From positions 1 to 43,872 of the forward strand of contig CAIMOB010000004.1 of NCBI GenBank assembly GCA_903842985.1: DNA of 43,872 nucleotides, written 5' to 3'. Shown here in pieces: positions 3,366-43,774 of this stretch; within the stretch, counting starts at the first letter, position 1; each line of letters starts with the position of its first letter. The notes under the pieces were generated by a model. That model saw nothing but the letters and a program-made list of their open reading frames with translations, did no database searches and was not told the origin of the DNA. The position numbers and the translations under genes were made by a program. The stretch is from an uncultured archaeon. Lineage in GTDB: Archaea > Nanobdellota > Nanobdellia > Woesearchaeales > CAIVOO01.

Positions 3366-3839
3366 TCACCCCAGTGTTGCAATCCAGTTCCCAATGTAAT
3401 ATGTTGCAACAATGACAATAATTGCAATCGCCAGATGCTCAAGAATTGCATATTGCGGCCTAATTCCCCTTTGCCTGGCGAGGTAATAGCTAAAAATCGT
3501 TATCAAAGACAAGCCCCAGATAATGCTTATAAGGATTGCTGTTGAAAGCGAGAATAGCAGTACAGGCACTATGAAAGTAAGCGCAAAAAAAAGCTTTGAG
3601 AAAAATGTCGCAGCAGTAGACTCCCATATCTTCTTGCGCGAGTTCTTCAGCCCCGTCTCTTCAGAAAGATGAATGCCAAGCGAGTCAGACAACGCATCTG
3701 CAACTGCAATCATCAGTATTCCGCCAATAACAACGATTTTTGAATGGGTGCTCGAGTCAAGCCCGACAATCATGCCGAGTGTTGTTATTATCCCTGACGC
3801 AAGCCCGAAGCCAAGCCCCTTCTTGAATGAAACCCTCAC
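3366..3839 (-). CDS. VIT1/CCC1-like metal transporter-related membrane protein
   Basis: This 157-aa protein has an N-terminal segment KKGLGFGLASGIITTLGMIVGLDSS and a following GGILMIAVADALSDSLGIHLSEE. This is the pattern of the VIT/CCC1 iron/manganese transporter family: helix 1 with G-x-x-x-G-x-x-T, helix 2 with A-D-x-x-S-x-x-x-G-x-x-x-S. About four helices follow. It is shorter than typical VIT proteins (about 220 aa or more). The start is GTG at 3839, overlapping the stop of the PIN-ATPase gene (GTGA), so it is translationally coupled to it. Confidence 0.65.
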   Translation of the reverse strand: MRVSFKKGLGFGLASGIITTLGMIVGLDSSTHSKIVVIGGILMIAVADALSDSLGIHLSEETGLKNSRKKIWESTAATFFSKLFFALTFIVPVLLFSLSTAILISIIWGLSLITIFSYYLARQRGIRPQYAILEHLAIAIIVIVATYYIGNWIATLG

Positions 3840-5656
3840 AGTGCAACCTCAACATTCCTATTGAATATCAGCGCATCAAGCAGGAGCTTTCCCAGCTTGT
3901 TTGTTTTGCCGACTTTTATCTCGCCTTTTTTCCCGACATTCATTGTTACAAGATATTCGCCGGCAACATAAATATTCACGTTCTTGTTCACAAGATTAGG
4001 ATCAACTTTTATAATAACATAGTTTCCTGACTCGAATAGCTCAAACCTTACATTCTTCTTTGGCATTTCCTCTGCTGGCTTTTCTTCCATCTCCCTGATA
4101 TCAAGTCCTATGCCGAGCTTTTCCTCTATTTTTTCTATATTCTGACCGCCCTTTCCTATGATTGAGGCAATAAATTTCTCAGGAACATAGACAATTGCCT
4201 TGTTTTCAGAGGCAACCTCAACCCTGACATTGTCTGCATATTTCTGGAGCTCATTTCTTATTGTTTTTGCAGCCAGCTCCTTCAGCGGAGTTCCCTTTTC
4301 AGTCTCCTGTACAGGAACCACTACAGTTTCCTCGCCGTAGCTGTAGATTTCAAACTCAAGCTTCCCTGTCTCAAAGTCAGATACAACAACAATCGGCCTT
4401 GCAAGGTCCGCTTCTGTCATTCCGCTCGGCACCTTTACCATCATTGCTACATTGAAAACCTTTGCAACTCCGCCGTTCTTTATGAAAACCACAGTGTCAA
4501 CAACATGGGGAATCATCCCGAGCTCTATCCTCCCAAGGAATCTCTGGATTGCATCTATTGCCTTTGTTGCGTGCACAACCCCAACCATTCCTACGCCGGA
4601 CAGCCTCAGGTCAGCGAATAATTTGAAGTCATCTGTGTTTCTCATCTCATCAAAAATAGTGTAATCAGGCCTTGAAAGCAATAAAATGTCATGGATTTCC
4701 TGCGGTGTTCCGTGGGAAATTGCGTACTGTGTTATGCTGTCAGGCAGCACCAAATCCCTCGGCGCTTCAACTGTCTTCACTATCTTGTTTTTATTTGCGT
4801 AATGTTCTGCAAGCGCCTGCGCAAAAGTGCTCTTTCCCATTCCAGGCGCGCCTGCAATCAAAACACCCTCTGCCTGCTCCTCTATCCTCTTTGCAAGTTT
4901 TTCAGAAATCTTGTAATCATCAATCTGCAGTTTCTTGATTGGCTTTACAGCAGTTATCTCCCAGCCGTCTGAGAAAGGCGGCCTTGTTATCACAATCCTG
5001 TACAATCCAAGCTGGACAATTGTTGAGCCCGGCCTGTCAATCTCTATGAAGCTGTCCCTTCTCATGTTAGCTTCCTCAATTATCTCCTTTGACATCTCCT
5101 TTATTTCTTCCTGCGTCAGCTTCTTAGCTTCTTTTTTAATGAACTCCCAGTTGCCCGGCACTCCAACCTTGGCAAACGGCGGCATGTTTTCCCTTAAATG
5201 CGCGCTCATTGTCCTTGCGTCAAAGAACCTTTCTAGCATCAATTTTCTCGGCTTTATCTCCAGCTCTATGAGAATAAACTTTATTCCCTTTGCATCCGCG
5301 ACCTTTGCCTGTACCTTGTCAGCTGTTATCAGCACTGCATCGTTCTCAAAGGCAAGCTCCCTTATCAGCGAGTCAATCTCGCCCATTTTCGCGTATTTTA
5401 TCTCAGCAGGCCTAGGCCTGTTTCCGCTGAATGAGAGTTTGAAATCAAGCTTTTTGGAAATCTCCCTCAGCCTGCTTATCTCCTCAAGCCCGATTGAGCC
5501 GATTGACTTGTTCATGTTCGCCTGGTGCTCAAGCTCTGCGACAATCGCCTCATGGATTATTATCTCATCTGTGGCAAGCTCCTTTTTCTCGAGCTTCTTT
5601 GACACAATCCCTTCAATAATGACAGAAGTGTCCGGGACAAGTTTTTCTGTTTTCAT
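3836..5656 (-). CDS. PIN domain - secretion-type ATPase - KH domain protein
   Basis: The protein has 606 aa in three parts. A PIN nuclease-like domain at 1-135 has acidic residues at D9 (VPDTSVIIEG), E41, D95 and D113. A VirB11/PilT-type ATPase core at about 200-440 has Walker A GAPGMGKST (269-277) and Walker B-like DYTIFDE (331-337). A KH RNA-binding domain has its GKGG loop at 501-504. This architecture is conserved in archaea and usually annotated as a PINc/VapC-family ATPase. RNA processing or surveillance is plausible but unproven. ATGA overlap with the upstream gene and GTGA overlap with the downstream gene place it centrally in the operon. Confidence 0.9.
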   Translation of the reverse strand: MKTEKLVPDTSVIIEGIVSKKLEKKELATDEIIIHEAIVAELEHQANMNKSIGSIGLEEISRLREISKKLDFKLSFSGNRPRPAEIKYAKMGEIDSLIRELAFENDAVLITADKVQAKVADAKGIKFILIELEIKPRKLMLERFFDARTMSAHLRENMPPFAKVGVPGNWEFIKKEAKKLTQEEIKEMSKEIIEEANMRRDSFIEIDRPGSTIVQLGLYRIVITRPPFSDGWEITAVKPIKKLQIDDYKISEKLAKRIEEQAEGVLIAGAPGMGKSTFAQALAEHYANKNKIVKTVEAPRDLVLPDSITQYAISHGTPQEIHDILLLSRPDYTIFDEMRNTDDFKLFADLRLSGVGMVGVVHATKAIDAIQRFLGRIELGMIPHVVDTVVFIKNGGVAKVFNVAMMVKVPSGMTEADLARPIVVVSDFETGKLEFEIYSYGEETVVVPVQETEKGTPLKELAAKTIRNELQKYADNVRVEVASENKAIVYVPEKFIASIIGKGGQNIEKIEEKLGIGLDIREMEEKPAEEMPKKNVRFELFESGNYVIIKVDPNLVNKNVNIYVAGEYLVTMNVGKKGEIKVGKTNKLGKLLLDALIFNRNVEVAL

Positions 5657-9789: not shown

Positions 9790-9883
9790 AGCGGGGTAGG
9801 GCAGTCTGGAGTGCCCGGTGGGCTCATATCAATATGAATTGTAAGAAACCCACAGGTCGTAGGTTCAAATCCTACCCCCGCTA
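9790..9883 (+). tRNA. Initiator tRNA-Met(CAU) with a 19-nt intron
   Basis: The acceptor AGCGGGG pairs with CCCCGCT, giving the A1-U72 pair that marks archaeal/eukaryotic initiators. The D-arm includes GGCAGTCTGGAGTGCC. The anticodon stem is GTGGG/CCCAC with three G-C pairs next to the loop, anticodon CAT at 9825-9827, and T-arm GTAGG TTCAAAT CCTAC; A73 and no encoded CCA. The gene is 94 nt; removing 9829-9847 leaves a 75-nt tRNA with a normal 7-nt anticodon loop. Confidence 0.95.
9829..9847 (+). other. tRNA intron (canonical 37/38 position) with BHB motif
   Basis: This is a 19-nt intron after A37. The precursor folds as anticodon stem GTGGG/CCCAC, a 4-nt central helix CTCA/TAAG with one C-A mismatch, bulge TAT (cut TA|T), inner hairpin CAAT-ATGA-ATTG, and bulge AAA (cut AA|A). 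This is the substrate shape of the archaeal splicing endonuclease. The exons would be rejoined by RtcB, whose cofactor archease is encoded at 1887. Confidence 0.85.
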
Positions 9884-22554: not shown

Positions 22555-23826
22555 ATGCAAATACGAAAAGTATACGGAAGGGGGCCGAAAAGAAACAGCT
22601 TTTGGCAGTGCTTTGGATTGACAGGCATTTCAGTGCCTCTGGCATTTTTTTCCTATTATTCATTTGCAGACACACCTTCCATTGACAAAAAGTGGGACAA
22701 TGTTTCCAGCTCAATTGATTATTACACTGATAACTTCAAGAGCAATTTGGCTGCAGTAAGCAGAGCATTAGGCATAAGCATAGACTCAATCGATTCAAAT
22801 ATTGTTTCAGTGGAAGCTGAGCCTAAAAATGTGATTTCTGTTTCATCCATTGCATCAGACATCGGAAAGAACATATCCACTCTTGTTAAGGATGTCGTGA
22901 AAACAGTGCAGCCACCTGCAAGGGTAGCTTTGCCTGGTCCGGTCAAAATACTTCCCTACATTCCTCCTGAAATAACCATCAAGCCCGCGCCAAGGCCAGA
23001 CCTTGAGTATCTCTATCTTGACAGCAAGCTTGAAAAAGCAATCCAGAAAAAAATAAAATATTACACTGGCTGCGAGGTCCATAAAAAACACACCTACTGC
23101 AGGATGACTGGCTATTCATTTCTTGCGAGCGAATCAACAAGGTTCGATGACTTCATCCTTGAGGGGCTGGCGAAAACAAAGTATGTCAAAGACGGCCTTA
23201 TCAGGTCAATCGGGTCAAATGAATCGTTGTTCAAGCTGAATGCAGTTTCAGGCAAGGGCGCAGAAGGCCCTATGCAATGCATGCCAGAAACTTCAAAAGG
23301 CTTGGGCGTCATGGTAACCCGCCATTTCACAGACAGCATGTTCCCTTCAATATTCATAGAAAGCGCGAAGCATCTCGATAGGATGGCTGAAAAATTCGGA
23401 GGAAACATCATGCTCGCGCTCGTCGGCTACAACTGGCGCGAGGATAAGGCGCAGAAGCTTTATGAAAGATTTGGGAATGATGCAAAATACCATGAGATTT
23501 ATGATAAAATACCTGCTGAGACGCGAGATTACCTGAGGGATGTTCTTTCGCTTCAGAGAGTATATGAGAATCGCGATAAATATGGGCTTGCCGTAAACAA
23601 AAGGCAGCTGTTTTCAAGCATGATAGATTTTGTTTACATTGTCAGAGACGGCGAGCACCTGAGGCGGATAGCAAGGGACTTTGACAGGCCCTATTCGAAT
23701 GTCCGTGATCTCAATCCGCAGATAAGGGACCCTGAATCTATTGTGCCTGGAATGAAAATCTACATGCCGAAGAGAGGCATAACCTCTGATTTGGGCTATC
23801 TTTACGCAGCTCTTCCTGGAAAATAA
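22555..23826 (+). CDS. Membrane-anchored lytic transglycosylase with LysM domain
   Basis: The protein has 423 aa. A short basic N-terminus and a hydrophobic segment (about 19-38) form a signal or anchor. A linker precedes a GH23-like soluble lytic transglycosylase domain at about 165-320. Its family motifs are SNESLFKLNAVSGKGAEGP with catalytic Glu223, MQCMPETSKGLG, and ALVGYNW in place of ALAAYN. A LysM domain is at about 358-405 (YIVRDGEHLRRIARDF, VPGMKIYMP). The enzyme should cleave peptidoglycan-like glycans outside the cell. An archaeon of this type has no murein of its own, so the target is probably a partner's or host's wall, or an altered glycan. Confidence 0.88.
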   Translation: MQIRKVYGRGPKRNSFWQCFGLTGISVPLAFFSYYSFADTPSIDKKWDNVSSSIDYYTDNFKSNLAAVSRALGISIDSIDSNIVSVEAEPKNVISVSSIASDIGKNISTLVKDVVKTVQPPARVALPGPVKILPYIPPEITIKPAPRPDLEYLYLDSKLEKAIQKKIKYYTGCEVHKKHTYCRMTGYSFLASESTRFDDFILEGLAKTKYVKDGLIRSIGSNESLFKLNAVSGKGAEGPMQCMPETSKGLGVMVTRHFTDSMFPSIFIESAKHLDRMAEKFGGNIMLALVGYNWREDKAQKLYERFGNDAKYHEIYDKIPAETRDYLRDVLSLQRVYENRDKYGLAVNKRQLFSSMIDFVYIVRDGEHLRRIARDFDRPYSNVRDLNPQIRDPESIVPGMKIYMPKRGITSDLGYLYAALPGK

Positions 23827-28905: not shown

Positions 28906-30663
28906 ATGGACTCAAAAGAGCTGATTAGGAAGTACCTTGAGTTCTTCAAGGCAAAGAAGCATGCAGCCATAAAATCAGCTTCATTAATCCCAGAGCATGA
29001 TCCTTCTGTGCTTTTCACAACAGCAGGCATGCATCCGCTTGTGCCTTTTCTTTTAGGGCAGCCGCATCCGCTCGGAAAGAGACTAGCTGATGTCCAGAAA
29101 TGCATAAGGACAACTGACATTGATTCTGTCGGAGACCCTTCGCACTTAACTTTCTTTGAAATGCTCGGCAACTGGAGCCTGGGCGACTATTTCAAGAAAG
29201 AAGCAATTGAATGGAGCCATGAGTTCCTTACAAAAGTCCTTGGGTTTGATGCCAAGAAGCTTTCAGTCACCTGCTTTGCAGGAGACAAGGACGCTCCAAA
29301 GGACGAAGAGGCAGCATCTGCCTGGAAAAGCTTGAAAATTCCTGCTGAAAGAATCTACTTTTTGCCAAAGGAAGACAACTGGTGGGGCCCTGCAGGTGAA
29401 ACAGGCCCGTGCGGACCATGCTCTGAAATGTTCATAGACACAGGAAAGGAGAAATGCTCTCCAAAATGCAGGCCAGGCTGCAACTGCGGGAAATACTTTG
29501 AAATCTGGAATGATGTTTTCATGGAATACAGCAAGACAAAGGAAGGCAAGTTCGAGAAGCTGAAGCAGAAGAACGTAGACACAGGCATGGGAGTCGAAAG
29601 GACAATTGCAATGCTTGCCGGAAAGAAAACTGTCTATGAAATAGAGACGCTGAAGCCAATTATCGAGAAAATAAAGGAGATTTCAAGGATAAATAACCCA
29701 GATGAGAAGCAATTGCTTTCAATGAGGATAATCACAGACCATTTGAGAGCTTCAACTTTCATTCTCGGAGACGACAAGGCAGTCGCCCCTTCAAACGTCG
29801 ACCAGGGCTATATTTTAAGGAGATTCATCAGAAGGGCGATAAGGCACGGGAATGTTCTTGGCATACAGAGAGAATTCCTCTCTGAACTTGCGGTAATTGT
29901 CCTAGAGATGTACAAGGAAAGATACGACGAGCTGTACAGGAACAAGAACTTCATAATTTCTGAACTGAGAAAAGAGGACGACAAATTCAGGAAAACCCTT
30001 GAGAAAGGCCTTCATGAGTTTGAGAAGATTGCAAAGGCAACAATTTCAGGCAAAGACGCTTTCCTTCTTTTCCAGAGCTACGGCTTCCCATTTGAGCTTA
30101 CAAAGGAGCTTGCAGCTGAGAAGAAAATAAAGGTTGATGAGAAAGAGTTTGACGACGAGTTCAGGAAGCACCAGGAGCTTTCTCGCGTTGGCGCAGAGAA
30201 GAAATTCAAAGGCGGGCTGAGCGAGGCATCAGAGGAAACAGCAAAATTGCATACTGCAACGCATTTATTGAATGAGGCATTGCGAATTGTTGTTTCAAAA
30301 AATATTTCACAGAAAGGAAGCAACATAACACCTGAAAGATTAAGGTTTGACTTCAATTTAGACAGGAAAATGACGCCTGAAGAGATTAAGAAAGTTGAAG
30401 AAATTGTCAACAGGAAAATAAATGAAGCAATCCCAGTCAAAAGAGAGGAAATGTCTGTTGAGCAGGCGAAAAAGAAAGGAGCGCAGGCAGAGTTCGGCGC
30501 CAAATACAGCGAAAAGGTTTCTGTTTATTCTATTGATGATTTCTCAGTTGAGATATGCGCAGGACCGCACGTCAAGAACACTTCTGAACTTGGAACATTT
30601 AAGATTATGAAAGAAGAGAGCGTTGCAGCAGGCGTCCGAAGGATAAAAGCAGTTCTTTCGTAA
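28906..30663 (+). CDS. alaS: Alanyl-tRNA synthetase, short form without C-Ala domain
   Basis: The protein charges tRNA-Ala. At 585 aa it has the class II catalytic domain (FTTAGMHPLVPFLLG, FFEMLGNWSLGDYF), a Cys-rich loop CSPKCRPGCNCGKYFEIWN, and the tRNA-recognition domain. The editing domain has a full zinc site: HTATH (His448, His452) and CAGPH (Cys550, His554). It stops there. The C-terminal oligomerisation/C-Ala (DHHA1-type) region of about 250 residues that most AlaRS carry is missing. The N-terminus is bacterial-like. The protein ends cleanly at TAA with no remnant downstream, so this is a natural short form. Confidence 0.93.
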   Translation: MDSKELIRKYLEFFKAKKHAAIKSASLIPEHDPSVLFTTAGMHPLVPFLLGQPHPLGKRLADVQKCIRTTDIDSVGDPSHLTFFEMLGNWSLGDYFKKEAIEWSHEFLTKVLGFDAKKLSVTCFAGDKDAPKDEEAASAWKSLKIPAERIYFLPKEDNWWGPAGETGPCGPCSEMFIDTGKEKCSPKCRPGCNCGKYFEIWNDVFMEYSKTKEGKFEKLKQKNVDTGMGVERTIAMLAGKKTVYEIETLKPIIEKIKEISRINNPDEKQLLSMRIITDHLRASTFILGDDKAVAPSNVDQGYILRRFIRRAIRHGNVLGIQREFLSELAVIVLEMYKERYDELYRNKNFIISELRKEDDKFRKTLEKGLHEFEKIAKATISGKDAFLLFQSYGFPFELTKELAAEKKIKVDEKEFDDEFRKHQELSRVGAEKKFKGGLSEASEETAKLHTATHLLNEALRIVVSKNISQKGSNITPERLRFDFNLDRKMTPEEIKKVEEIVNRKINEAIPVKREEMSVEQAKKKGAQAEFGAKYSEKVSVYSIDDFSVEICAGPHVKNTSELGTFKIMKEESVAAGVRRIKAVLS

Positions 30664-32595: not shown

Positions 32596-33093
32596 ATGAA
32601 AATGGAGTTTATAATATCAAAAACGAACCTGGCAGAGCTTACAACATCCGGGGAAGGTGAAGTTGGCTACCTTATCATGCACAAGCAAAGCGAAGACCAG
32701 CTTTATTCTGTATCAAAGATAAGAGTGCATGACAGAGGATTCCCTTCAAGACTGGGCAGCGCGCTTGACATGGCAATCATGGAGTATGTTTTCATGACAC
32801 CAGACGTTGTCGGCATCCCTTACAAAGACATAGTTGAGGACAACGGCAAAACAGACGAAAGAACGCATTTCTCCACAATGATGAAATTTTTTAATGCAAC
32901 ACAGGGTCAGATAGACTATTTTCTCACCATAAAAAACAAGGAACTTAAATTTTTCAAAATCTCTGGAAGAGACGGGCCTGACTTTACCAGGGTCAAGTAT
33001 TCCATAGATGACTACAACATTGCATCAGACCCGGACAGGGTAAGAGAAATACTCATTGACTCGCTGAAACTAGGCAACCCTTGCGCCAAGTAA
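32596..33093 (+). CDS. Hypothetical protein
   Basis: The protein is 165 aa (163 if started at 32602). It has alternating beta strands and helices: MEFIISKTNLAELTTSG, VGYLIMHKQSEDQLYSVSKI, HFSTMMKFFNATQGQIDYFLTI, KELKFFKISGRDGPDF. It lacks signal and metal motifs. Its promoter is identical over 18 bp to that of the lytic transglycosylase gene, so the two may be co-regulated. The last 24 bp overlap the convergent PIN-like gene. Confidence 0.55.
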   Translation: MKMEFIISKTNLAELTTSGEGEVGYLIMHKQSEDQLYSVSKIRVHDRGFPSRLGSALDMAIMEYVFMTPDVVGIPYKDIVEDNGKTDERTHFSTMMKFFNATQGQIDYFLTIKNKELKFFKISGRDGPDFTRVKYSIDDYNIASDPDRVREILIDSLKLGNPCAK

Positions 33094-33942
33094 ATCATTC
33101 AGCGCAATAACATCCTTGTCAAGGCTTCTTATTTTCGCGCCGACAGCGCGCGCTTCTGCAACAAGGCGCATGTCCCCGACATATCCCTTCTCCCCAATTT
33201 TCATAAAGTCTGATTTCATCTTTTCCAGCAGAACTCTTTTGTCTTTTTTGATGCTTTTTATGGACCTCAGCATAGAGACCAGATTGTCATCACGCGCCTT
33301 GCAGATTTCTTTTATGGCAGCGCCCTTGAAATCGTTGACGTGTTCAAAATACCTGTCTTTGTTCGCTTTTTGGAGATTAATTTTCAGCATTTCGCAGAAA
33401 ATTTTATGCCGTTCCATTATCTTGCTGTCCAGATCCCCCAGATTCAATTCATTCATCCTCTTAATGTCGCCTGAAACAGCATCGAGGCTTTCACCCCTTT
33501 CAAGCCTTGCCAGCACCAGCTCAAACTGCGTTAGCAGCCGGTTTGCAAGGGAATCATCGGCAATGACAAGTATGTAATGCACAAGCCTCCTTGGGATAAG
33601 CTCAACGAGCTGCTCCACTTCCTTCGCAAATTCATTGAAATCCACTTCAGGGATTTTGGTTTTCAGCTTCTCAAAGTACTCTGTCAGCAGCTGCGACGCC
33701 TTCGGCCCGATTTTCTTGTGCTTTATCAGCCCGTAAATCTCCTCCTGGTTTTTTGGCATGAAAAAGAAGAACTCGTAGCCAATCATCTCATCAAGCGCAG
33801 CCCTGTCGCCGACATTTGCAATAGCGACAAAGGCGTTTGTGTCAAGCACAAGCGGCACCTCATCTCTCATCGCGTCTTTGATGTGCTGCCTTGCATCAAC
33901 ATACCGCTTATTCTCATCGGTTGTTTCAGAAAATATTCCCAT
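33070..33942 (-). CDS. PIN-like nuclease with large helical insert
   Basis: The protein is 290 aa from the ATG at 33942. The frame extends further upstream but a TATA box (33965-33973) is 26 nt from this ATG. PIN-type acidic residues are arranged as expected: VPLVLDTNAFVAI (Asp34), NQEEIYGLI, YVGDMRLVAEARAVG, and IRSLDKDVIAL. A helical insert of roughly 140 residues separates the early and late motifs, much larger than in VapC toxins (about 130 aa in total). Metal-dependent RNase activity is inferred. There is no adjacent antitoxin. It is the first of three PIN-like genes here. Confidence 0.65.
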   Translation of the reverse strand: MGIFSETTDENKRYVDARQHIKDAMRDEVPLVLDTNAFVAIANVGDRAALDEMIGYEFFFFMPKNQEEIYGLIKHKKIGPKASQLLTEYFEKLKTKIPEVDFNEFAKEVEQLVELIPRRLVHYILVIADDSLANRLLTQFELVLARLERGESLDAVSGDIKRMNELNLGDLDSKIMERHKIFCEMLKINLQKANKDRYFEHVNDFKGAAIKEICKARDDNLVSMLRSIKSIKKDKRVLLEKMKSDFMKIGEKGYVGDMRLVAEARAVGAKIRSLDKDVIALNDLLGARVA

Positions 33943-33964
33943 GAAATTGATGTATAAAATGCAA

Positions 33965-33998
33965 TATATAAACGTTTCTTTTCCACAAAATTTAAATA
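33965..33998. promoter_or_regulatory. Divergent promoters for PIN-like and Cys-rich small genes
   Basis: The minus-strand box is TATATAAAC as read on plus at 33965-33973. The plus-strand box TTTAAATA (33991-33998) is centred 26 nt before the ATG at 34021. Confidence 0.55.
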
Positions 33999-34020
33999 TT
34001 GCAAAATCCTTATAACCTCC

Positions 34021-34176
34021 ATGAGTGACGTCTGCAAAAGCTGCTGGCGCTGGAAGAAATTCAAGGAGAAGTGCTGGTATCATTGGGATGGGAAAAAAGA
34101 GTGCTTCAAGCACATTGATAATGAGAATTCTGAAGAAAGCTACAAGAATGTTGATAAAAACACAGACATCTACTGA
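34021..34176 (+). CDS. Small Cys/Trp-rich protein (51 aa), possible zinc finger
   Basis: The ORF starts MSDVCKSCWRWKKFKEKCW and continues YHWDGKKECFKHIDN. Cys5, Cys8, Cys18 and Cys27, with nearby His residues, could bind one zinc ion. The rest is an acidic tail ending NTDIY. The ATG is 26 nt after a TATA box, so it should be expressed as a leaderless mRNA. It diverges from the PIN-like gene at 33942. It could be a nucleic-acid-binding regulator or an antitoxin-like partner of its PIN neighbours. Confidence 0.55.
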   Translation: MSDVCKSCWRWKKFKEKCWYHWDGKKECFKHIDNENSEESYKNVDKNTDIY

Positions 34177-34272
34177 AATTCTTATTTTCGTCACAGCTCA
34201 GCGAAAATAGTTTTTAAATTGAAAAATTTATGATAGAAAATGTTTTAAATAAAACATCATTTTTTCTATTTT

Positions 34273-34986
34273 ATGTACACGTACGTTGTTCCGTATGCGA
34301 ATGATGTACGCAATCGGCTGGACCGCATGCGCGGCAGGATAATTCTTGACAATTCTTTTGTGACACTTCGGATCGGAATCCTGAATGGAAAGCTGATAGA
34401 GTGCAGCAGGGATTTCATAGAATTCTCGCTTGAGCTCATGGCAGGCGGAGGAGAATACAAGCCATTGATGGACAACCAGCAGGAGTACATGCAGGGGCTG
34501 TGCGAGCTTGCCGAAGAAAAAAAGCTTTTCACTGTTGACGGCATTGTCAGGAAGGAGATGCTTGACCTGAAACGCAAGAGCGACAAGTGCGCCGGCAGTT
34601 TCATAGAGCCGGACTTCATTGCCTATTTCAGGGACTTCAGCAACGGGGTTGATGAGCTTCTTAGGGCTTTGAACAAGAATGTGCCATATTTGACTGAGGA
34701 CAGCATGTTCAGGAAAATAAGCCATGACATAAACGGGATTATGATCCGCGGAAAAAAGCAGCCGTCAAAGATAGACAGGAGGGTTGTTGCAACAGCGCTC
34801 TATGAAAGCCATGCAAAAAGCGAGGAGATAAACATACTTGCGAATGACCCGCATATATACAACCTGCTTGAAAAATTCTGGGAATCCAAGAACCGCAGGA
34901 GGCTTGATGCAGAAATTAGATGCTTCACATTCGACAAGGAAAGAGATTACGAGCTGGTGCAGGCCTACTCCACCTTCAGGAAATAA
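34273..34986 (+). CDS. Divergent PIN-like protein
   Basis: This 237-aa soluble protein has its own promoter (TTTTAAAT, 34243-34250, 26 nt upstream). A PIN-like acidic pattern is seen: RIILDNSFVTL (Asp26), LFTVDGIVRKEMLDLKRKS (Glu), KIDRRVVATALYES (Asp) and INILANDPHIYNLL (Asp). It shares its blocks with the next gene (35022), for example LFTVDxIxxxEMxxLxxKS and INILxNDxHI, though overall similarity is low. Between the early and late motifs lies a helical insert. I infer an RNase-type fold; the target is unknown. Confidence 0.6.
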   Translation: MYTYVVPYANDVRNRLDRMRGRIILDNSFVTLRIGILNGKLIECSRDFIEFSLELMAGGGEYKPLMDNQQEYMQGLCELAEEKKLFTVDGIVRKEMLDLKRKSDKCAGSFIEPDFIAYFRDFSNGVDELLRALNKNVPYLTEDSMFRKISHDINGIMIRGKKQPSKIDRRVVATALYESHAKSEEINILANDPHIYNLLEKFWESKNRRRLDAEIRCFTFDKERDYELVQAYSTFRK

Positions 34987-35021
34987 CAAGTATTTTATAT
35001 TTTTCTGTCTTTCTGATTCTT

Positions 35022-35804
35022 ATGAAATACTTCACGCCCAACCTTCAGCAGACACTTCAAATGCTGGATGAGATAGCTGCGTCAGGCAGGATTCTCCTTG
35101 ACACCTCCGCAGCAACCTTTCCATTCGGCCTGCAGAGGAGCACAAGCATAGAAACCCCTGACTTGTTTGATTTTTTGCTGCAGTCAGCTAGGACTTATGG
35201 GAAATACGAGGGGCTAATCCGCGTGCAGACAGCGTACATAGACCACCTGACTTCGCTCTCTGAAAGCGAAAGGCTTTTCACTGTCGATGACATTCTGAAC
35301 CAGGAGATGAAAGTGCTGCAGTTTAAGAGCAGCCAATCCATACAGGACCTCACAAGCATGAAATACAGGCAGGAGATGGGCAAGCTCGCCCACAGCATTG
35401 ACGGGCTGACGGCTTCCCTGCAGAAAAATGTTTTTGCCACAAAAGGCGTGCCTGGGCTTGATGCTGTTCGTGAAGAAATCAGGGATATTTACATGACAAC
35501 TGAAACGCTGCCGTCCCAGAGGGACAAGCTGCTGGTTGCATCGGCGTTCCACCTGAATGCTGCGAACGGCGAAAGAATAAACATACTTTCAAATGACGGG
35601 CACATCTTTGAACTGTGCGTAATCCATTACGGGAGAAATCTCCACAAGGAAAATTCGCTTGAGCTGGATGTCAGCTGCTTCTCGTTTGACAGGGACCACA
35701 GCCTTGACCTGATAGAACTGATTTCAAAGGGATATTCCAGCGAAGTTACTTTCAACAACTATGCCAGATTTCTCAGCAATCTTACAGAAGGCACGCTGTT
35801 CTAG
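35022..35804 (+). CDS. Divergent PIN-like protein, paralogue of the 34273 gene
   Basis: The protein is 260 aa from the ATG at 35022, chosen because TTTTATAT (34993-35000) is 25 nt upstream; the open frame extends 34 codons further but into the previous gene. Motifs align with the preceding protein: RILLDTSAATF (Asp27), LFTVDDILNQEMKVLQFKS, SQRDKLLVASAFHLNA and INILSNDGHIFEL, then CFSFDRDHSLDLI. The C-terminal extension is unique. Its TAG overlaps the convergent gene by 4 bp. Tandem duplication followed by strong divergence is the simplest explanation. Confidence 0.6.
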   Translation: MKYFTPNLQQTLQMLDEIAASGRILLDTSAATFPFGLQRSTSIETPDLFDFLLQSARTYGKYEGLIRVQTAYIDHLTSLSESERLFTVDDILNQEMKVLQFKSSQSIQDLTSMKYRQEMGKLAHSIDGLTASLQKNVFATKGVPGLDAVREEIRDIYMTTETLPSQRDKLLVASAFHLNAANGERINILSNDGHIFELCVIHYGRNLHKENSLELDVSCFSFDRDHSLDLIELISKGYSSEVTFNNYARFLSNLTEGTLF

Positions 35805-41976: not shown

Positions 41977-42008
41977 AGGTGACTACTTTTTCTTTGTTTT
42001 GTAGTCAC
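41977..42008 (-). terminator. Inverted repeat spanning the Fic stop codon
   Basis: GGTGACTAC (41977-41985) and GTAGTCACC (42000-42008) form a 9-bp stem with a 14-nt loop. It contains the last codons and the TAG of the Fic gene. The same stem and the same 14-nt spacing recur at 42978-43007, across the stop of the nuclease gene. Confidence 0.6.
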
Positions 42009-42933
42009 CCAGTTTTTTCTTCAGTTCCTTATATTCTTTAATATAAAGCCTTACTGTTGGCTTTAAATCATGGTTTTTCTCATAAAACTGCAATGATTCA
42101 TAATACTCTGCCCTGTTTTTGAAATCTATGTTTATTGGCGGCAAGCTGTGTTTGATGAGTATGTTATTTAATAGTATTCTTCCAACCCTCCCATTCCCGT
42201 CCCTGAATGGATGAATATTCTCAAATTGGTTATGGACAACCGCCCCAAGAATCAGCCCCGGATATTTGTTTTTGTTATTGCTGTACCACTCAACCAATTC
42301 GCGCAGAAGATGGCTTATTCTCGCCTGCGGCGCGCCTTCATGGACAACATTTCCTCTGCTGTCCATTACAACAACTTCTTCGCCTTTTTTCCTAAGTTTC
42401 CCGGCGAATGGCTTGGAATTCTTGAATATGATTTTATGTATTTTTTTAATAAGCTCCAATGAAATATGCTCTTTTATGATTCGGGTATGTGAAATTGCCT
42501 CATCCACCCCAAATGCCTCGGCAATGTCCTCCTTTGATTTGTTTGGCCATTTGTCTTTTTCCAGCAGATCCTTGACCTCTTCCTGGCTTAGTTTGCTTCC
42601 TTCTATTGCGTTGGTATTGTAAGTGAATATTTTTGAGAATTCCTTCCAATCCCCTTCTGACAAATGGCTTATTTTTAGCGGTATCTGGGCTTCAAGTTTC
42701 TTTATTAAATTTATTTCCTCCTTTGAAAGCTCTACTTTGAGCGGGTCTTTTATTATTTTGTACCTGTGTATCTCCTCCAGGATGAGCTTTTCAGCTATTT
42801 TTTTTCTTTCGTTCAGCTTTGTTAAGTCATGGCCCAGGTATTTCCTGAATTTGTGGACTTTCGTGCCTTCCCTATATGAATATGCGAGGTAATATTTTAT
42901 TCCCTTCCCGGACTTTCTTTTTTCTATATGCAT
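41983..42933 (-). CDS. Fic-domain protein (AMPylator type) with inhibitory motif
   Basis: Fic enzymes transfer AMP or other nucleotidyl groups to proteins. The 316-aa protein carries the full active site HPFRDGNGRVGR (241-252) and an N-terminal inhibitory helix motif TNAIEG (107-112), which fits (S/T)xxxE(G/N) of self-inhibited class II Fic proteins. The first 40 residues (GIKYYLAYSYREGTKVHKFRKYLG) are an SH3-like or RNase H-like N-terminal strand pair also seen in some transposases. TATTTAAA (42956-42963) gives a leaderless transcript, flanked by GGTGACTAC motifs. The gene is bounded by 14-bp direct repeats. Confidence 0.93.
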   Translation of the reverse strand: MHIEKRKSGKGIKYYLAYSYREGTKVHKFRKYLGHDLTKLNERKKIAEKLILEEIHRYKIIKDPLKVELSKEEINLIKKLEAQIPLKISHLSEGDWKEFSKIFTYNTNAIEGSKLSQEEVKDLLEKDKWPNKSKEDIAEAFGVDEAISHTRIIKEHISLELIKKIHKIIFKNSKPFAGKLRKKGEEVVVMDSRGNVVHEGAPQARISHLLRELVEWYSNNKNKYPGLILGAVVHNQFENIHPFRDGNGRVGRILLNNILIKHSLPPINIDFKNRAEYYESLQFYEKNHDLKPTVRLYIKEYKELKKKLGDYKTKKK

Positions 42934-42945
42934 ACTAATGTTATA

Positions 42946-43007
42946 GGTGACTACATATTTAAACTTTTTGGTTTTGGGTGACTACATTTGGGTTGGTTTG
43001 TAGTCAC
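42946..43007. promoter_or_regulatory. GGTGACTAC operator cluster at the Fic promoter
   Basis: There are three copies of GTGACTAC or its complement: 42947-42954 between TATA and start codon, 42978-42985 just upstream of the BRE, and 43000-43007 inverted. The last two form an 8-bp stem with a 14-nt loop that contains the stop codon of the nuclease gene. Together they could act as operator and as terminator. Confidence 0.65.
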
Positions 43008-43663
43008 ACTATCTTCTGGCAGTGGTCAACCCATTTGCAGAAGCCGCAGTCTTCTGAAGGTTTTGGCATTGGATTTTTTAGAATTTGAATTGCTTCCCTG
43101 AAGATATTTTCCGCGTTCTTTATATTGACTGGCATCTTGATTAAGTCTGTGTGGAAGACAACATCTCCGCTCTTATTGACTTTTTCCGGATGGTAGAATA
43201 AGAGGTAGCTGTAATCCTCTGTTTCGTAGCTGTTTTTTCTTAATAAGAAGTTGTAGATGTCCAGCTGGTCCCTGTAATGCTCTGTTGTGTCTTCCTTCAC
43301 TGGGAAGCCCCGGGTTTTGAAGTCCAATACTATTAGCTTGTTTCCCTTTTTTAACAAGCAGTCAACTGCTCCTCTGAAGAGGTTTCCAGCTTCATCTGTC
43401 CAGGGGATGCCTTTGAAGTTGTTCCTCCAGATATCTAATAGTTCTTTGTTATTGAATAGGGTTACGCCTTTCAATTCCTTCAGCACTGGCGGAAGCTTTT
43501 CTCCGAATGAGTCAAAATATGCTTTAAGTATCTTGTCCATGCCAGATGGCAAGGAGGGGAAGATTGAGTCTGGGCGCTTGATATTCTTATTGAATTGTAG
43601 CCAGAAGCAGCGCGGGCAGTCTTTCAGCAAGCTTAAAGATGATGGGCTGAATTTGTGTGGCAT
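43004..43663 (-). CDS. PD-(D/E)XK nuclease with Cas4-like four-cysteine arrangement
   Basis: The protein has 219 aa from the ATG at 43663; a TATA box (TTATAAATAC, about 43686-43696) lies 28 nt upstream, whereas more upstream ATGs are too close. It shows FSPSSLSLLKDCPRCFWLQ, the catalytic FRGAVDCLL (Asp) and LIVLDFKTRG (D-F-K), then DQLDIYNFLL. It ends CGFCKWVDHCQKIV. The N-terminal Cys plus three C-terminal Cys match the Fe-S cluster sites of Cas4/AddB-type nucleases. No cas genes are present in the window. The stop is inside the GTAGTCAC motif. Confidence 0.85.
   Translation of the reverse strand: MPHKFSPSSLSLLKDCPRCFWLQFNKNIKRPDSIFPSLPSGMDKILKAYFDSFGEKLPPVLKELKGVTLFNNKELLDIWRNNFKGIPWTDEAGNLFRGAVDCLLKKGNKLIVLDFKTRGFPVKEDTTEHYRDQLDIYNFLLRKNSYETEDYSYLLFYHPEKVNKSGDVVFHTDLIKMPVNIKNAENIFREAIQILKNPMPKPSEDCGFCKWVDHCQKIV
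43020..43033. repeat. 14-bp direct repeat, right copy
   Basis: This is identical to 41962-41975. On the minus strand it encodes WVDHC near the end of the nuclease; the left copy reads WVDH in the same frame and then diverges. Confidence 0.8.
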
Positions 43664-43774
43664 TTCTTGTATAAAAATCATAGTATTTATAAGTATTATG
43701 CCCGTAGCTGTACTGTGGGAGTGGTGCACAAAATCAAAATCTTTATATATTGGTGTATATTTACTGTATATACA

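Follow-up and report, generated by a model that had tools for sequence, protein, structure and literature searches.

Genes at the locus

The window, that is, the whole stretch of 43,872 nt that was analysed, derives from an uncultured archaeon of the order Woesearchaeales. On its reverse strand it carries a gene for a 290-aa protein (33070..33942, -), the candidate nuclease on which most of this analysis centers. Divergent from it, on the forward strand, are a gene for a 51-aa Cys-rich small protein (34021..34176, +) and two further genes encoding proteins of 237 aa (34273..34986, +) and 260 aa (35022..35804, +). These four ORFs were all recovered at the coordinates given in the initial annotation. 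On the other side, a 165-aa ORF (32596..33093, +) converges on the 290-aa gene and overlaps its 3' end by 24 nt.

The 290-aa and 51-aa genes are separated by a divergent intergenic region (33943..34020), in which a TATA-like box lies about 30 nt upstream of each. A box of this kind, matching at 7-8 of 8 positions, lies 27-30 nt upstream of the ATG of each gene, and leaderless promoters are therefore plausible for the nuclease-like genes, judging from the sequence. The box at each gene fits the earlier proposal that each of them has its own leaderless promoter, but the same feature is present at most of the other window genes tested. In the case of the 260-aa gene, the TATA-like box at -28 is the reason why the ATG at 35022 is preferred over a longer ORF that begins at 34920.

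None of the 290-, 237-, and 260-aa proteins is recognized by any model in Pfam and NCBIfam scans, and no match to the HARP/PIN_5 Pfam models was listed for any of the three. They were described as about twice the size of VapC toxins, which agrees with the PIN-domain ORFs of related genomes, mostly 125-155 aa long. However, their placement in one unnamed PIN subfamily is not upheld: the 290-aa protein has no similarity by BLASTP to the 237- and 260-aa proteins, and the three-gene cluster was met in no other genome examined. At the level of sequence, two families without detectable similarity stand side by side, and they are discussed here as family 1 (the 290-aa protein) and family 2 (the 237/260-aa pair).

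The 51-aa protein had been suggested as a possible partner of the nucleases, and its gene is indeed adjacent and divergently transcribed. Nevertheless, a role as antitoxin or cofactor of the neighboring nucleases appears highly improbable. Relatives at E ≤ 0.1 turned up in 50 related genomes out of 118, and most of these genomes have neither nuclease family; no relative was found near the family 1 genes of other genomes. Because this small family is widespread in the order independently of these nucleases, the 51-aa ORF does not qualify as a partner dedicated to them.

Evidence for PIN cores in the two families

Relatives of the 290-aa protein were found in six other genomes from the window's own order, including the Candidatus Woesearchaeota archaeon isolates Zod_Metabat.1155, Zod_Metabat.825, and SI034_bin65. 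The genomes are labeled G038, G106, G287 (where the gene is split at a contig end), G473, G482, and G021, the last with two copies. The family is sparse, as one profile detected it in 4 of the 288 genomes of the order, source genome included. Weak matches in four additional genomes (G037, G338, G407, and G477) were judged to be chance resemblances to unrelated proteins. Near the copy in G473, at L099:5843-6663 (+), a 174-aa ORF that looks PIN-like by eye is followed by a UPF0175-like ORF (a sub-threshold Pfam match), and these two are possibly an ordinary toxin-antitoxin pair.

Family 1 was compared by hhalign, one half at a time and with 100 column shuffles for each, to a PIN reference alignment built from 30 PF01850 matches from related genomes. 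For the N-terminal part (residues 20-110) the score was 40.4 (E = 3e-7), where the best shuffle reached 15.4; for the C-terminal part (residues 225-288) it was 24.8 (E = 2e-4), where the best shuffle reached 14.5. Both halves thus match PIN above all shuffles, and they stand in the right order. This similarity stays, however, under Pfam's own cut-off, the best relative reaching only E = 0.045 with PF01850, and no PIN match emerged when the family alignments were searched against PDB sequences.

The invariant positions of the family include D34, N36, E68, D257, S273, D275, and D277. Among complete or partial relatives from the six other genomes, taking all sequences that cover these positions except the degenerate P0017, the only invariant acidic residues are D34, E68, D257, D275, and D277. 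The first four form an acidic tetrad in the order typical of PIN domains (D, E, D, D), to which D277 can be added.

The AlphaFold2 model of the 290-aa protein, built from seven sequences, has a pLDDT of 87.7 and a pTM of 0.81, and its strands and helices are positioned as a PIN core requires. In the model, D34 follows strand 31-33, E68 lies in helix 63-74, D257 lies in helix 255-266, and D275 and D277 follow strand 270-272. An insert of about 175 mostly helical residues separates E68 from D257; helices occupy most of the segment 75-248, and the insert contains a conserved L-[IL]-P-R motif (115-118). When the model was searched against the PDB with Foldseek, VapC1 (5k8j) had the highest probability among the 50 matches listed (0.82, over 88 columns). 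No match was significant, the best E-value being 0.5, probably because the insert splits the PIN core; those ranked highest by E-value were mostly helical proteins. Taken together, the profile halves, the invariant acidic residues, and the confident model make a PIN fold very likely for the 290-aa protein. The PIN assignment of the initial annotation is thus well supported for this protein, and it is only tentative for the 237/260-aa pair, for which the evidence consists of motifs and a weak model.

The 290-aa protein resembles VapC and other PF01850 proteins in the order and type of its acidic residues, in an LDTN motif after strand 1, in the glutamate located in the helix after strand 2, and in the D...D arrangement at the C-terminus. 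It differs from VapC in its length (290 versus ~130 aa), in the large helical insert, and in that no VapB adjoins it. Helices inserted in a PIN-like domain are also a feature of HARP (homologs of Aquifex RNase P, PIN_5 cluster), whose PIN-like metallonuclease domain has two inserted helices (PMC8266387), compared to ~175 residues in the 290-aa protein; HARP 8kd9 appeared among the fold matches listed with a probability of 0.14. Judging by the two helices inserted in HARP, the large helical domain that splits the predicted core after the E68 helix probably serves for binding of the RNA substrate, for oligomerization, or for docking of a partner protein. The fold and the acidic residues of the predicted active site are well supported, and we infer from the PIN superfamily that the protein is a ribonuclease, which would act on RNA in a metal-dependent manner.

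The 237- and 260-aa proteins are adjacent paralogues, as had been noted, with 29% identity over their length (BLASTP, E = 1e-29) and two common motifs, LFTVDxIxxxEMxxLxxKS and INILxNDxHI. Both have acidic residues in PIN order (D26 in the 237-aa protein or D27 in the 260-aa protein, then E95, D168, and D192). The conservation of these residues is thinly sampled, since it is read from three sequences, the two paralogues and a weak relative (P0015, from G283) that is the only one found outside the source genome. On motif and topology alone, the pair is probably PIN-like, and most likely the two proteins are also nucleases. It is rather unlikely that they adopt another acidic α/β fold, although several observations would fit that reading. 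Compared to the PIN profile, the C-terminal half scores within the range of the shuffles, 10 of 100 of which reach its value, and the model of the 237-aa protein, built from two sequences, is of low confidence (pLDDT 65) and has no significant Foldseek match. On the other hand, the strand and helix order of the model is consistent with PIN, and in the N-terminal half the strand-D motif (ILLDTS/IILDNS) beats 100 of 100 shuffles, though over 8 columns only. Furthermore, the E, D, and ND motifs follow each other in PIN order, and P0015 has FTDTN, YEI, VSDE, and SNDS. Of the fold matches of the 237-aa model, the one to the T5 5'-nuclease, a protein with a FEN-type PIN-like fold, ranks among those of highest probability; this match is weak and non-significant (probability only 0.16-0.20), and sequence similarity is not part of it. 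The pair is proposed to be a lineage-restricted tandem that happens to adjoin the 290-aa gene and its neighbor.

The convergent neighbor and its possible roles

The initial annotation considered the cluster to be without antitoxins, and it recommended looking for recurrent gene neighborhoods in DPANN genomes. Such a neighborhood was found for the 290-aa family, so that the first statement needs correcting: the nuclease gene has a recurrent, convergent, 3'-overlapping neighbor, represented in the window by the 165-aa ORF. This neighbor of ~165 aa is recognizable in six genomes (the window, G038, G106, G287, G473, and G482) that belong to three families (f1, f37, and f25). Homology is clear within the f1/f37 group (E = 1e-10 to 6e-26) and within the f25 group, and the two subgroups align by profile over 134 columns with a score of 26.1, while no shuffle exceeds 17.9. 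The overlap with the nuclease gene is 24 nt in G038, as in the window, 33 nt in G106, 29 nt in both G287 and G482, and 47 nt in G473.

The neighbor matches no Pfam family and hence no DNA-binding antitoxin domain there. Its length and an "E-x-GYL" region, compared by eye, are superficially like those of JAB/MPN proteins (PF14464), an assignment that was rejected because the profile comparison was negative (hhalign against JAB proteins of related genomes, score 17.6, probability 1.3%).

The two copies in G021 differ from this pattern. One of them, C2, is full length with an intact active site, lacks the partner, and lies beside a fibrillarin-like gene. The other, C1 (L022:1411-2325, -), is degenerate (D34E, E68R, D275K, and D277K) and has a convergent 161-aa neighbor with an overlap of 29 nt. 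This neighbor, P0018, was considered as a homologue of the partner and discarded, as its score is at shuffle level and it has no sequence support.

On the basis of the conserved adjacency and the 3' overlap, the ~165-aa protein is proposed to work with the 290-aa nuclease or to hold it in check. The account favored here, in which the 290-aa protein is a PIN RNase accompanied by a ~165-aa accessory protein or regulator, next to a separate PIN-like pair, is given an even chance of being correct as a whole. A narrower version appears improbable, namely that the two genes form a tail-to-tail, 3'-overlapping module in which an enlarged PIN ribonuclease is paired with a regulator or inhibitor dedicated to it, their expression being coupled by convergent transcription instead of an operon.

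The overlap and the adjacency might also be devoid of functional meaning. Two independent genes could simply have been co-inherited in compact genomes, a reading that is rather unlikely but has points in its favor: convergent overlaps of at least 20 nt occur in about 2 of the 20 other convergent pairs of these contigs, and G038 and G106 belong to one genus and have wider synteny. Against it, the pair persists in three families even though identity has dropped to 20-30% for both proteins, and its outer flanks differ between these families, which indicates that the pair has been kept on its own. These flanks are an uncharacterized 191-aa gene and the 51-aa gene in the window, while the genes named by eye elsewhere include a DEAD helicase and a CDC48-type ATPase nearby in G038/G106 and L7Ae and S28e in G482.

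If the adjacency is functional, the pair might also be a convergent version of a toxin-antitoxin system, with the 290-aa protein as a toxin RNase and the ~165-aa protein as a neutralizer whose gene has a separate promoter on the opposite strand. The conserved PIN active site, the recurrence of the pairing with mostly different outer flanks, the sparse distribution of the family, and the presence of other PIN or UPF0175-like genes nearby in G287 and G473 would all suit such a system. However, type II toxin-antitoxin pairs are usually co-directional operons, and here the genes are convergent. No small co-directional gene of the VapB type occurs upstream of the 290-aa gene, and the convergent neighbor has no antitoxin domain in Pfam. 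The full-length, active-looking C2 copy of G021 does without a partner, and the degenerate copy is the one that has a neighbor, a pattern that argues against a strict toxin-antitoxin reading. In addition, the flanks in G038/G106 and G482 are of the housekeeping kind. On balance, a toxin-antitoxin-like pair is considered unlikely.

Nor did the analysis bear out the suggestion that these proteins are defense-related. A PADLOC scan of the three proteins gave only weak partial matches (E 0.01-0.04), none amounting to a defense-model match, and a PHROGs scan gave no usable one. No relatives were found in IMG/VR viral contigs, in PLSDB plasmids for the 290-aa protein, or in phage records for the 260-aa protein, and a Foldseek comparison with viral models returned nothing significant; as mentioned, the flanking genes are often housekeeping genes.

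To return to the favored account, the 290-aa protein and its relatives are regarded as a new PIN family of enlarged size, accompanied by a recurrent convergent neighbor; it is ordinary in kind and somewhat unusual in build and gene arrangement. That Pfam misses the 290-aa protein suggests that standard annotation overlooks PIN nucleases with large inserts. DPANN genomes, including those of Woesearchaeota, encode many unannotated proteins, and for them the 290-aa/~165-aa pair offers a concrete two-gene target. If the ~165-aa protein were a neutralizer, the gene arrangement would be unusual for a toxin-antitoxin-like pair.

Other genes of the window

The window also encodes an ordinary PIN protein of 606 aa (3836-5656, -), which combines an N-terminal PIN domain over the Pfam cut-off with an ATPase-like part. 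Elsewhere, a gene for a Fic/DOC-family protein (41983-42933, -) adjoins one for a PD-(D/E)XK nuclease (43004-43729, -). A 423-aa protein (22555-23826, +) has transglycosylase SLT and LysM domains (Pfam E = 2e-11 and 2.5e-5, respectively), which is unexpected in an archaeon that presumably lacks peptidoglycan. An AlaRS-like ORF (28906-30663, +) is only 585 aa long and, by eye, apparently lacks the C-terminal domain. Finally, a tRNA gene at 9790-9883 (+), with an Rfam tRNA score of 52.6 bits, was given by ARAGORN only the anticodon "ca" and no assignment; in its loop, CTCAT is followed by additional letters, so the gene possibly encodes a tRNA-Met and contains a short intron.
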